Positions 15,279 through 52,518 of a stretch of 64,000 nucleotides of DNA are shown one piece after another. The stretch covers positions 124,001 to 188,000 of the forward strand of contig CABIVS010000006.1 in the NCBI GenBank assembly GCA_902362375.1, given 5' to 3'. Both the position numbers and the translations under genes were made by a program. Numbering within the stretch: the stretch's first letter is position 1; the number at the start of each line of letters is the position of its first letter. This DNA is from Bacteroidaceae bacterium (GTDB lineage Bacteria; Bacteroidota; Bacteroidia; Bacteroidales; Bacteroidaceae). The notes beneath the pieces were generated by a model, which searched no databases, was not told the origin of the DNA, and was given only the letters and a program-made list of their open reading frames with translations.

Positions 15279-16685
15279 ATGAATAGACTGATACGAATAG
15301 CGTTTACATTTTTACTTGTAATGACTTCAGGAGTTATACAGGCAGAAATTGTCATCTATCCGGTGCCACAAGGTATCTACTATGCCCGTCACAACGACGA
15401 CTACACAGTAAAGGTACGTCAAGTGGGTGAAAAAGATTGGGTAGATCTTTATGAATATAATGTAAAGGTGGATATGGATACCAAGTCGGATGCAACCATG
15501 GTACAGTTTGATTTTTCCGGTAAAGTGGAAGTGCTGGTGCAAAAGAATAACGGAGAACTCCGTTCAGCAGTAGTGCGTCCGTTATCCAAAGGCATTCAGC
15601 CGGAGATAGACGGAAATTTTCTGCTGTTCACATTGGATAAACCGCAAAAGCTCTCTGTAGAGTTCAACGGTGACCGTTTGAATAATCTGCATGTGTTTGC
15701 CAATCCGATCATTGAGAATGTGCCTGATAAGAATGATCCGAATGTGATGTATTTTGAGTCCGGTATACACGAACCCACTGATGTGGCAGGCAAATGCTTC
15801 CGTATTCCTTCCAACACGACTGTCTATCTGGAAGGTGGAGCGGTGCTGAAAGGTTGCCTGACTTGCGACAGCGTAGAGAATGTAAAGATTCTCGGACACG
15901 GTATGTTGCTTGAACCGCAGCAGGGAATATCGGTGGCATACTCCAAGAATGTACTGATTGATGGAATTACAGTCGTCAACTCCCGTCACTACACTGTTTC
16001 CGGTGGGCAATCGCAAGGAATCACTATCAAAAACCTGAAATCATTCAGTTATCAGGGCTGGAGTGACGGATTGGATTTTATGTCCTGCTCGGATGTAGTG
16101 ATTGATGATGTTTTTCTTCGTAATTCAGACGACTGTATAGCCATCTATACGCATCGTTGGAATTATTATGGAGATTCTCGTAATATCCGTGTACTTAATT
16201 CTACACTATGGGCGGATATTGCTCACCCCATCAATATCGGTACACATGGAAATACGAAAACAGGAGATGAAGTTTTAGAAAATATATTGTTCAAGAATAT
16301 CGATATCTTGGAACATGATGAGGACGATCGTGATTATCAAGGCTGCATGACTATCAACGTAGGAGATCACAATCTGGCACAAAACATTACTTTTGAGGAT
16401 ATTCGTGTGGAGCATATTCAGGAAGGACAGTTGTTTCATCTTCGGGTGATGTATAACCAAAAATATAACACAGGGCCCGGCAGAGGTGTCAGAAACATAA
16501 CGTTCCGTAATATTTCATGTATCGGGAAATATATCAATCCTTCTTTGATGGAAGGTTATGATAAGAATAGGAAGGTTGAGAATATTTTGTTTGAAAACAT
16601 CGTGTTGAACGGCAAACGGATCACCTCTTTGGAAGAACTGAATATAGATAAAAAAGATTTTGTAGGGAAGATACGGATAAAGTAG
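15279..16685 (+). CDS. GH28-like right-handed beta-helix glycoside hydrolase
   Basis: A 468-residue secreted protein: signal peptide (1-22), an N-terminal beta domain (to about 160) and a parallel beta-helix with the coil pattern NVKILGHG, NVLIDGI, GITIKNL, NIRVLNS. The GH28-type acid cluster is seen as WSDGLDF, NSDDC (Asp 284/285) and IGTHGN, which parallel the family's N-x-D, DD and G-H-G motifs. GH28 enzymes hydrolyse galacturonan or rhamnogalacturonan linkages, but divergent members act on other glycans, so the substrate remains open. It is the last gene of the PUL 1 operon; convergent uxuA starts beyond a 386-base gap. Confidence 0.8.
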   Translation: MNRLIRIAFTFLLVMTSGVIQAEIVIYPVPQGIYYARHNDDYTVKVRQVGEKDWVDLYEYNVKVDMDTKSDATMVQFDFSGKVEVLVQKNNGELRSAVVRPLSKGIQPEIDGNFLLFTLDKPQKLSVEFNGDRLNNLHVFANPIIENVPDKNDPNVMYFESGIHEPTDVAGKCFRIPSNTTVYLEGGAVLKGCLTCDSVENVKILGHGMLLEPQQGISVAYSKNVLIDGITVVNSRHYTVSGGQSQGITIKNLKSFSYQGWSDGLDFMSCSDVVIDDVFLRNSDDCIAIYTHRWNYYGDSRNIRVLNSTLWADIAHPINIGTHGNTKTGDEVLENILFKNIDILEHDEDDRDYQGCMTINVGDHNLAQNITFEDIRVEHIQEGQLFHLRVMYNQKYNTGPGRGVRNITFRNISCIGKYINPSLMEGYDKNRKVENILFENIVLNGKRITSLEELNIDKKDFVGKIRIK

Positions 16686-16708
16686 CTAACAAATAAAAGA
16701 TTGTGTTG

Positions 16709-16813
16709 ATTTTACCCTCACACTCTCACCCGGCTCTCAATCCCTTTATCCATCGAACTTTCGTGGGTGAGGGTAAAGGTGAGGGTAGTGTGAGGGTAAA
16801 ATTTACCCTCACA
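16709..16813. repeat. Nested long inverted repeat (TTTACCCTCACA family)
   Basis: The 16-base arm at 16709-16724 is perfectly complementary to 16787-16802, and inside it CTCACCC (16725-16731) pairs with GGGTGAG (16765-16771). A further copy of TTTACCCTCACA lies at 16802-16813, and GAGGGTAAAGGTGAGGGTA repeats part of the arm. As RNA this would fold into a large stem on either strand, so it could stop or stabilise both convergent transcripts. Confidence 0.7.
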
Positions 16814-16859
16814 TATGATCATAACTAAAGGCCCGGAGGAATGGTCGTTTCTTGTCTTT

Positions 16860-17034
16860 GAGACTGAATTTTCCAACTTTAGAAACTATAGTTTTCCGCT
16901 TTTGGAACTGGAGTTTCGAGCCTTTGGAACTAAAGTTTCAAGGCGGGAAACCATCAGTTTCAAGTAACGAAACACTTTGTTTCACACCGTGAAACAAAAT
17001 ATTTCCCGCCTTGAAACAAATAACTAGGTTATTG
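16860..17034. repeat. Array of eight 22-base degenerate dyads (GAAAC-N4/5-GTTTC)
   Basis: Units begin at 16860, 16882, 16904, 16926, 16947, 16969, 16991 and 17013, giving steps of 22, 22, 22, 21, 22, 22 and 22 bases. Each opens with G[AG][AG]AC, and most carry GTTTC or TTTCC 4-5 bases later, so every unit is a small imperfect palindrome. In addition 16935-16950 is the exact reverse complement of 17002-17017. The spacing equals two helical turns. It does not fit a CRISPR (no constant repeat, no separate spacers). Function unknown. Confidence 0.75.
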
Positions 17035-17071
17035 CTCTGACGAAGCTCTGTACTGTATCAGTACTGCAAGA

Positions 17072-18259
17072 TTATAATATAATCTGCCGTTCTTTCTCAT
17101 CATCCACCACAGCCATCATTCCTTCTACTTGTGCAAGAGCCAGCATACGTCCGTGGAAAGAATATCCCGGATTGTAGCCTTTATCTTCATCTCCCAGCAT
17201 CATTCGTCCGTGGTCTACACGCATCGGTAATCCCGGATTTTCCTTCTCGAAGATACGGATAAGGTCAATCAGATGTCCTCTTCCCGTAAGATGGGAGCTT
17301 TCAATGAAGTTTCCACTTTGCATGGCAGCCGTGCTGCGCAGGTGTACGAAATGAGTCCTTTTTGCAAATTTCTTAGCCAACTCACGTGTATCGTTATGCT
17401 CGCCTGCACTCAAAGAGCCTGCACAGAAAGTTAATCCATTATGAGGATTATTTATGGCATTCAGGAACCATTCAATATCACTTTCATTGGTAACGATACG
17501 TGGCAAACCTAATACCTGAAATGGAGGATCATCCGGATGTACGCACATATTAACTTCATATTCTTCGCATACAGGCATGATTGCAGATAAGAAATAACGC
17601 ATATTTTCACGCAAAGTATCGCGGTCTATATCTTTGTACAAAGCGAGTAGCCGCTTGAAGATGGCAACCGGATTTTTATCTCCTTCTTTGATATTGCCGT
17701 TGACAAAACCTTGTGTCTTGACGATAATGGTATCAATCAAAGCGTCTTTTTCTGCTTCTGTGATAACCTTATCTAACTCGGCAACTTTCTGAAGTTCTTC
17801 TTCAGTGTAATCTTTTTCAGCTCCTTCACGTTCTAGGATTCGGATATCGAAATAAGCAAAACGGATGCGGTCATAATACAGGGAACTGGTACCGTCCGGC
17901 CAAGGGTATTGCAAGTCTGTACGTATCCAGTCGATAACGGGCATGAAGTTGTAACAAACTGTTTTTATGCCGCATTTACCCAAATTGGCAAGGCTTGTTT
18001 TGTAGTTATCAATTAACTGTTCACGTTCCGCTCCTGCGTATTTGATTGCTTCACAAACAGGAAGGCTTTCCACTACCGACCAGCGTAACCCATACGATTC
18101 GATGTATGATTTCAAATCGTTAATAGCTTCTACTGTCCATATTTCACCATTCGGTACATCATGCAGGGCAGTGACAATCCCTTCTACCCCTATTTGTCGG
18201 AGCATCGGCAAGGTAATCTTGTCTTTCTTGCCGAACCATCTCCAAGTTTTTTCCATCAT
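17072..18259 (-). CDS. uxuA: D-mannonate dehydratase
   Basis: A 395-residue cytoplasmic enzyme converting D-mannonate to 2-keto-3-deoxygluconate (EC 4.2.1.8), the third step of glucuronate catabolism. The start MEKTWRWFGKKDKITLPMLRQIG and the blocks TALHDVPNGEIW, VESLPVCEAIK, CVHPDDPPF, FCAGSLSAG, HFVHLRS and MRVDHGRMM are typical of UxuA, including His/Asp/Cys metal ligands. It lies 30 bases downstream of the SDR gene in the same direction, so the pair is probably an operon. It connects the uronates released by the two PULs with central metabolism. Confidence 0.95.
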   Translation of the reverse strand: MMEKTWRWFGKKDKITLPMLRQIGVEGIVTALHDVPNGEIWTVEAINDLKSYIESYGLRWSVVESLPVCEAIKYAGAEREQLIDNYKTSLANLGKCGIKTVCYNFMPVIDWIRTDLQYPWPDGTSSLYYDRIRFAYFDIRILEREGAEKDYTEEELQKVAELDKVITEAEKDALIDTIIVKTQGFVNGNIKEGDKNPVAIFKRLLALYKDIDRDTLRENMRYFLSAIMPVCEEYEVNMCVHPDDPPFQVLGLPRIVTNESDIEWFLNAINNPHNGLTFCAGSLSAGEHNDTRELAKKFAKRTHFVHLRSTAAMQSGNFIESSHLTGRGHLIDLIRIFEKENPGLPMRVDHGRMMLGDEDKGYNPGYSFHGRMLALAQVEGMMAVVDDEKERQIIL

Positions 18260-32540: not shown

Positions 32541-32693
32541 TATAAACGCAAGCTTTGTTTTTATAAATGCAACTTGCGTTTATAAAAACAAAGCTTGCAA
32601 TTATATAATTGAAGCTTGCATTTATAGTTTACCCTTAATCAAATGTAACTTTGCAATAAGTGCAAAGCAAGTTTATCTTTAATGAAATGAAAG
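32541..32693. repeat. Phased dyad array with a 65-base near-perfect inverted repeat
   Basis: The arms 32541-32572 and 32574-32605 (32 bases each, one-base centre) are reverse complements with three mismatches. The region can also be read as small dyads around GCAAGCTTTG, GCAACTTGC, AAAGCTTGC and GAAGCTTGC, with centres near 32552.5, 32573, 32593.5 and 32614.5, spaced 20.5-21 bases. Weaker dyads continue near 32638, 32658 (CTTTGCA/TGCAAAG) and 32685. This is the same two-helical-turn spacing as the array at 16860, with a different core. Confidence 0.7.
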
Positions 32694-32977
32694 TTTTCTC
32701 TTAATGTTTATGTTTCATCAAAGCCGTTGATGAGACAATGAATCGGTAAGATCATGAAATGGTGAGATTGAAAAGGAGAGAAAGGTAAGGGCAAACAGGT
32801 GTAAGTGGAGCAAAAATGCGTAGATTTTAGTGTATGGAGTCTCATTTTATAAAGTGATACTCTATTTGATGCGAATGTAAATTGTTGATAATGAGAAGAA
32901 TGTATTTAAATAAGTCTAACTAGATTCGTTGAGATTGATCTGCTTTATTTTCTGGCTGTTATATCCGAAATCCCCTC

Positions 32978-52407: not shown

Positions 52408-52518
52408 GAAATCAGCTGTTTTATCAGGGTAAATCATACGTTCTGTTAAGTATAAACCGATGCTTTGTTAGATGTAAACCGATGCTTTATTCAGTAGAAT
52501 CAGACAGCCTGTTCGGAA
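52408..52518. repeat. Degenerate 22-base repeat array
   Basis: Five units begin at 52408, 52430, 52453, 52475 and 52497 (steps 22, 23, 22, 22). Two successive units share TAAACCGATGCTTTxTT; the others read GAAATCAGCTGTTTT, TAAATCATACGTTCT and GAATCAGACAGCC. The shape RAANC-N4/5-GNTTT resembles the units at 16860. Confidence 0.55.

Follow-up and report, generated by a model that had tools for sequence, protein, structure and literature searches.

The window, by which we mean the whole stretch of 64,000 nucleotides that was analysed, contains a row of short palindromes repeated every 22 bases in the gap between two convergent genes. The features of this region, in window coordinates and with a strand for the genes only, are as follows:

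15279..16685, plus strand: left convergent gene, glycosyl hydrolase family 28 (GH28; PF00295, E 6.8e-13)
16709..16813: neighbouring palindromic repeats GTGAGGGTAAA/TTTACCCTCAC, a separate element beside the array
16838..16859: extra in-phase unit upstream of those previously reported, GGAATGGTCGTTTC plus an 8-base spacer, 22 bases before 16860
16860..17012: array of phased 22-nt palindromes (GAAAC-N4/5-GTTTC), seven units
16872..16874: TCC in a GTTTC-type half-site, homologous to the point of an IS3-family insertion in genome G047 (locus L220), where TCC is duplicated
16935..16950: left arm of a 16-bp inverted repeat that extends over three units
17002..17017: right arm of that inverted repeat, pairing with 16935..16950
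17013..17033: terminal GAAAC half-site followed by a small hairpin
17072..18259, minus strand: right convergent gene, mannonate dehydratase uxuA (PF03786, E 5.9e-116)

The eight unit starts given in the preliminary description of this DNA (16860, 16882, 16904, 16926, 16947, 16969, 16991, and 17013) all lie where it placed them, and the step that it called nearly invariant is 22 bases throughout except for one of 21, from 16926 to 16947. Its count of eight units over 16860-17034 holds for these starts but misses the in-phase unit at 16838. Likewise, the mini-dyad GAAAC-N4/5-GTTTC that it assigned to every unit is found in the seven units from 16860 to 17012 but not in the last, which has the GAAAC half only and then the small hairpin (AATAAC-TAG-GTTATT, 17019-17033). 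A close match to this terminal half-site and hairpin ends an array beside another gene in L084. The units take two forms, GAAAC-N4-GTTTC with an 8-base spacer and GAAAC-N5-GTTTC with a 7-base spacer. The periodicity is far above chance: identity at lag 22 is 0.608 over 16860-17034, a value reached by 0 of 5000 dinucleotide-preserving shuffles, in which the identity at the best lag from 10 to 59 averaged 0.348 (SD, 0.020). Another intergenic region of the window (32541-32720) holds a second, sequence-unrelated row of palindromes with a period of about 21 bases and AAGCTTGC and TTTATAA words, which at half-period 10 fell just under threshold in the sequence-blind scan described below. A short 22-base direct repeat, TGTTAAGTATAAACCGATGCTT, is present in 2.4 copies at 52444-52496.

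Similar arrays are present in related genomes. An exact two-unit motif with a free gap of 0 to 30 bases was searched in 158 genomes from the genus to which G001 belongs (G001 being the source of locus L001, Bacteroides finegoldii). It was present in 24 of them, and the reversed-pattern control gave 0 matches in the same set. The gap placed the units at 22 or 44 bases in 55 of 61 places, the other six being at 21, 23, or 42; a free-gap search of four genomes with a strict pattern gave 61 of 67 strand matches at 22 or 44, some places being counted on both strands. With three mismatches allowed, all of the 14 chosen genomes had 10 to 62 matches per strand, and the reversed control fired in 1 of the 14. 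An order-wide draw searched with two mismatches yielded 8 positive genomes of 393; its reversed control matched in one genome, G052, which was itself positive. Half-sites of the GGCAC/GTGCC type are mixed with GAAAC/GTTTC in some positive genomes of this draw. Five loci in genomes G503 and G437 (L164, L166, L170, L174, and L176) combine GGCACT and GAAACT half-sites in one array and have a 10-base junction with GGGG or CCCC in or beside the arrays. Viral contigs gave a single exact two-unit match (IMG/VR contig L133), and the plasmids searched for the motif gave none. Rfam gave nine matches, all below threshold, of which seven were to microRNA hairpins from plants or animals; we took them as chance hairpin matches, and the best had an E value of 0.0019 and 24.2 bits against a cut-off of 66. 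We found no printed description of these 22-base arrays in open-licence full texts, in which six unit-variant strings matched only one Streptococcus paper.

The array is seldom present at the junction that it occupies in the window: of 80 uxuA loci, three or more GAAAC-type units were found in L039 and L004 alone, and those of L039 are not beside uxuA. At the same junction, the relative L003 lacks an array but has a terminator-like hairpin, the hairpin of L001 is only a weak one, and L017 (Bacteroides reticulotermitis) carries, on the same uxuA side at about 11354, a 22-phase row with GAGAA/TTCTC half-sites. The placement between convergent genes described earlier is correct here (GH28 on the plus strand, uxuA on the minus strand) but is not a general trait: 17 of 55 non-redundant arrays lie between convergent genes, 32 between tandem genes, and 6 between divergent genes, compared with 15, 24, and 6 of 45 baseline gaps of at least 250 bases. 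This set leaves aside orthologues and arrays with no gene call on one side, and its contexts rest on longest-ORF calls rather than annotation. Orientation to the genes showed no clear preference relative to ordinary gaps, the upstream stop being the nearer in 20 of the 32 tandem contexts. An ORF of 110 amino acids or more is overlapped by 4 of the 55; arrays are thus nearly always intergenic, in ordinary gaps. Many related arrays adjoin GTGACAG/CTGTCAC repeats where the window array adjoins GTGAGGGTAAA/TTTACCCTCAC: of 58 arrays (duplicates collapsed), 24 have at least three such motifs no more than 400 bases away, compared with 6 of 100 distant segments from array loci and 0 of 13 other gaps.

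Unit geometry was measured in 48 parsed arrays (299 units, duplicate arrays collapsed). The step is 22 bases in 209 of 251 cases and 23 in 19; by unit form, it is 22 in 172 of 201 steps with a gap of 4 and in 37 of 50 with a gap of 5. Two geometries (4+8 and 5+7) share one period, which indicates that the period is held rather than the geometry. The constant phase with drifting sequence first noticed in the window is borne out by these steps and holds more widely, in sequence-unrelated families with a 22-base step (see below).

Conservation was compared in 15 hand-chosen array pairs. Half-sites differed at 45 of 1000 positions (4.5%), spacers at 138 of 666 (20.7%), cores at 57 of 427, coding flanks at 189 of 2601, and intergenic flanks at 715 of 4736 (15.1%), the last figure being inflated because one pair, L101/window, includes unrelated flank (141 of 286). 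At one locus (L124, L126, and L127), spacers differ by 43 to 54% and half-sites by 2 to 3%. In a six-genome alignment, 9 of 80 half-site columns were variable compared with 23 of 88 core and spacer columns (P = 0.018), and the comparison with flanks (97 of 489) reached P = 0.087 only. The constraint on half-sites is partly biased, because the arrays were retrieved by their half-sites. The earlier suggestion of a fast-evolving element therefore fits the spacers and the unit number, which turn over, but not the half-sites, which change less than spacers and flanks.

An insertion sequence is repeatedly found at these arrays. A terminal motif first seen beside four arrays led to 22 copies of an element in 6 of 22 genomes, of which 21 were readable once one masked copy (L186/L216) was left out. 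In 17 of the 21, a phased array begins 3 to 38 bases beyond the element end, which is far beyond chance because arrays make up well under 1% of those genomes (a rough estimate from four genomes). L182 and L184 appear to be a single orthologous insertion, which leaves 16 independent array-associated copies. The readable copies without a phased array are L187, which by eye abuts a variant row, L196, which adjoins another copy of the element, L195, and L201. The transposase beside the terminal motif in L099 belongs to the IS3 family (NF033516, above the NCBIfam cut-off; rve domains). A 3-base target duplication was present in 15 of the 17 copies examined for it among the 22, and in 10 of the 17 rejoined sites a unit runs across the cut, which falls after base 11 to 15 and so within the GTTTC half or at its end; four of those ten units are weak, with 3 mismatches. 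In G047, the element interrupts the counterpart of the window's array at the position homologous to 16872-16874 (L220), a site that is uninterrupted in the window. Three copies in G047 (L211, L212, and L220) are 2821 bases long compared with about 1587 elsewhere; the gene arrangement of the long copies fits a nested IS110-family transposase, with a Pfam identification in L101 only. L206, also in G047, holds two IS3-family copies in tandem.

The 22-base period is not confined to GAAAC-type units. A sequence-blind scan, which requires only six dyads at a fixed spacing, was run at ten half-periods with a score cut of 32 on 339 intergenic segments from uxuA loci (by record title, chiefly from Bacteroides, Phocaeicola, and related bacteria; the window was excluded). 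At half-period 11, 7 of the 339 segments scored at least 32 (shuffles, 0.1), and the other nine half-periods gave 0 to 2 segments each. Several of the top matches carry quite different palindromes, and some weaker ones are AT-rich or have a period of 23. The scan revealed no excess across the order, where 1 of 165 sampled segments reached the cut (shuffle, 0.2), and no match in 45 Escherichia coli segments, whose 18 kb give it little power. Three new words were searched in eight genomes with the step fixed at 22, many places being counted on both strands. The matches per strand numbered 36+32 in G553 for CACACG..CGTGTS, with 1 in the other genomes; 86+90 for AAACGYACTTRCGTTT, all in G554; and 97+98 in G555 for GACTGTAYAGTC, with 2 in the other genomes. 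When the gap was left free from 0 to 30 bases, 32 of 32 rows in G554 fell at 22 or 44 and 18 of 18 in G555 at 22 (44 being out of range). The 22-base step is therefore not imposed by the search in three of the four families (GAAAC-type, G554, and G555). Units in G554 consist of a 16-base palindrome plus 6 bases, and the G555 arrays at six aligned loci (L074, L288, L291, L293, L294, and L295) lie inside a larger repeated element with a conserved leader and tail. These are three separate multi-copy families, in three other species, of unrelated sequence and the same architecture, each confined, or nearly so, to one genome of the eight.

Both units and whole arrays vary in number. In-array gaps in four orthologous pairs measure 22 and 66, 22, 22, and 22 bases; two more aligned orthologous pairs have no in-array gap, and the small or terminal gaps of these alignments fall in the flanks. 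Over the part of the array shared with G047, the window has one extra 22-base unit, and some arrays contain near-identical tandem unit copies (for example, in G014 from 3324835). Whole-array paralogues occur within one genome at L147, L148, and L152, where homology ends near the array and one copy lacks exactly 22 bases, and at L141 and L149; L134 duplicates an array whose orthologues are present in six other genomes. By eye, no terminal repeats or target duplications of the arrays themselves were seen in the alignments of whole-array copies. Such copies could also arise by gene conversion between arrays.

On the basis of these results, we consider it fairly probable that the window's array belongs to a set of dispersed repeats, non-coding and non-autonomous, that resemble REP and MITE elements: palindrome arrays of 22-base step whose length changes one or more entire units at a time and which are copied from one intergenic site to another. 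The conserved property is best read as the 22-base spacing of the dyads, not their sequence. Units would multiply in register by recombination or slippage, and whole arrays would be mobilised by trans-acting machinery whose recognition differs from lineage to lineage. A gauge of two helical turns, either a bound protein dimer or the copying process itself, may keep the period while the sequence changes, and the arrays might bring the host some benefit. A mobilising enzyme was not found, PF01797 being present in only 4 of 13 array-rich genomes.

Could the arrays instead be binding sites, as in the cooperative DNA-binding array that the preliminary description raised? A protein could bind each palindrome as a dimer, with neighbours on the same face, two turns apart, touching one another; such rows would organise the chromosome or act as decoys, and recognition would drift while the spacing of 22 stays. 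This is a possibility of some weight that we nevertheless judge unlikely. The period is kept across geometries (4+8, 5+7, and the 16+6 of G554) and across unrelated sequences, half-sites are better conserved than spacers, and the IS3-family element goes to a half-site, all as a bound protein would predict. A step of 21 bases fits B-DNA as well or better, yet 22 is far commoner (172 versus 19 of the 201 gap-4 steps); moreover, whole arrays copy like repeats, and no candidate binding protein was identified.

A role in RNA is less likely again. Transcripts from either neighbour would form long hairpins at their 3' ends, blocking 3'-to-5' decay or terminating transcription. The two strands of 16860-17034 have strong predicted folds (-57.9 and -60.0 kcal/mol), the window contains a 16-bp stem, some arrays almost fill a convergent gap (L264 and L274), and L003 has its terminator-like hairpin at the junction that lacks an array. 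In 52 arrays, with duplicates collapsed and arrays under five units left out, shuffling the spacer letters gave a mean z of about -0.8 on either strand, so the spacers add a little pairing. Despite this, permuting the spacer order gave a mean z of +0.28; folding is not favoured by the order, which rules out a giant hairpin of ordered design. Compensated changes did not exceed those in shuffles either within units (3 versus a mean of 9.2) or across spacers (5 versus 7.4). We also rejected an RNA hairpin with G-U pairs: an excess of GGAAC over GTTCC within arrays resembled strandedness, but other pair positions disagreed (P = 0.79), and the signal was dropped because the retrieval pattern favours GGAAC and the other positions were null. 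Also counting against transcript ends, 16600-17200 contains no intrinsic terminator (a hairpin followed by a T-run), and divergent genes flank 6 of the 55 arrays. The dispersed-repeat reading and its rivals are not exclusive: an element that moves could at the same time be bound by a protein or function in RNA.

A plain minisatellite, in which a chance palindrome spreads by slippage without selection or mobility, has little to recommend it. It would account for the 22-base steps in unit number and for near-identical tandem copies such as those in G014, but not for whole-array copies at unrelated sites, for a period common to unrelated multi-copy families, or for the conserved half-sites. GTTTC and GAAAC resemble the ends of some CRISPR repeats, and CRISPR arrays are alike in setting palindromic repeats in a row with short spacers; a CRISPR-like or other defence array can nonetheless be practically dismissed, as the preliminary description had done, since the repeats are not constant in the 48 arrays and the 7- to 8-base spacers recur between loci.

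If the dispersed-repeat reading is extended beyond the window, Bacteroidaceae may hold a class of repeats set by metric rather than by sequence, with dyads every 11 bases (period 22), its own word in each lineage (GAAACT..AGTTTC, CACACG..CGTGTS, AAACGYACTTRCGTTT, or GACTGTAYAGTC), and unit pairs numbering in the tens in a genome; a trans-acting factor particular to each lineage, with a conserved 22-bp ruler, would probably read them. We offer this extension tentatively, as a claim not far short of even chances. If the ruler is kept while the words are replaced, these common gut bacteria contain a factor that gauges DNA or RNA two turns at a time and whose recognition sequence varies between species; a constant ruler with a species-specific word would make the factor findable by genome comparison. 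As landing sites of an IS3-family element, the arrays shape where insertions accumulate, mostly without gene disruption. They may also mislead short-read assembly, repeat callers, and CRISPR callers.

Among known systems, REP/BIME elements and REPINs (with RAYT) are alike in being many short, clustered intergenic palindromes that form genome-specific sequence families and serve as IS targets (PMC3733652, PMC3116915). The arrays here differ from REP/BIME in forming rows at a fixed 22-base step. By eye, no GTAG or CGTC tag and no constant tetranucleotide stands beside the units of 48 arrays. A RAYT-linked REP origin was rejected because the RAYT partner (Y1 transposase, PF01797) is sparse, with the 4 of 13 genomes given above, and a three-unit array was found at 0 of 9 PF01797 loci, 5 of them in array-rich genomes. 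IS1397 and IS621 are insertion sequences that target REP palindromes. In the work of Tobes and Pareja (PMC1525189), repeated intergenic palindromes are likewise IS landing sites; here, the element is of the IS3 family, the genomes are of the Bacteroides genus, and the site is the GTTTC half of a 22-nt phased unit.

BrickBuilt of Porphyromonas gingivalis is reported to be a minisatellite-bearing MITE with 23-nt direct repeats, a leader and tail, and IS5-like ends GAGACC...GGTCTC; the paper also mentions 22-nt repeats in strain W83 without their sequence (PMC4596501). It shares with our arrays its order (Bacteroidales), intergenic location, variable unit number, near-helical period, and predicted stem loops, and the G555 arrays also lie in a larger element with conserved flanks. 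The arrays differ from that account in their period of 22 and palindromic units, a distinction drawn from the description rather than from repeat letters. Within 300 bases of 73 arrays (duplicates collapsed), the IS5-like ends (2 mismatches allowed) gave 3 single matches, none paired; given this and the prevalence of the 22-base over the 23-base step, we rejected a BrickBuilt origin. The relevant passages of a B. thetaiotaomicron transcriptome paper (PMC7366714) hold nothing on such arrays; they name a near-palindromic promoter motif, PM2, whose letters are given in a figure. The nearest functional parallel is with REP/BIME repeats and their IS targeting, and the nearest within the order is with BrickBuilt. 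We class the arrays among dispersed palindromic repeats, as a variant not previously described in the open-licence texts searched.
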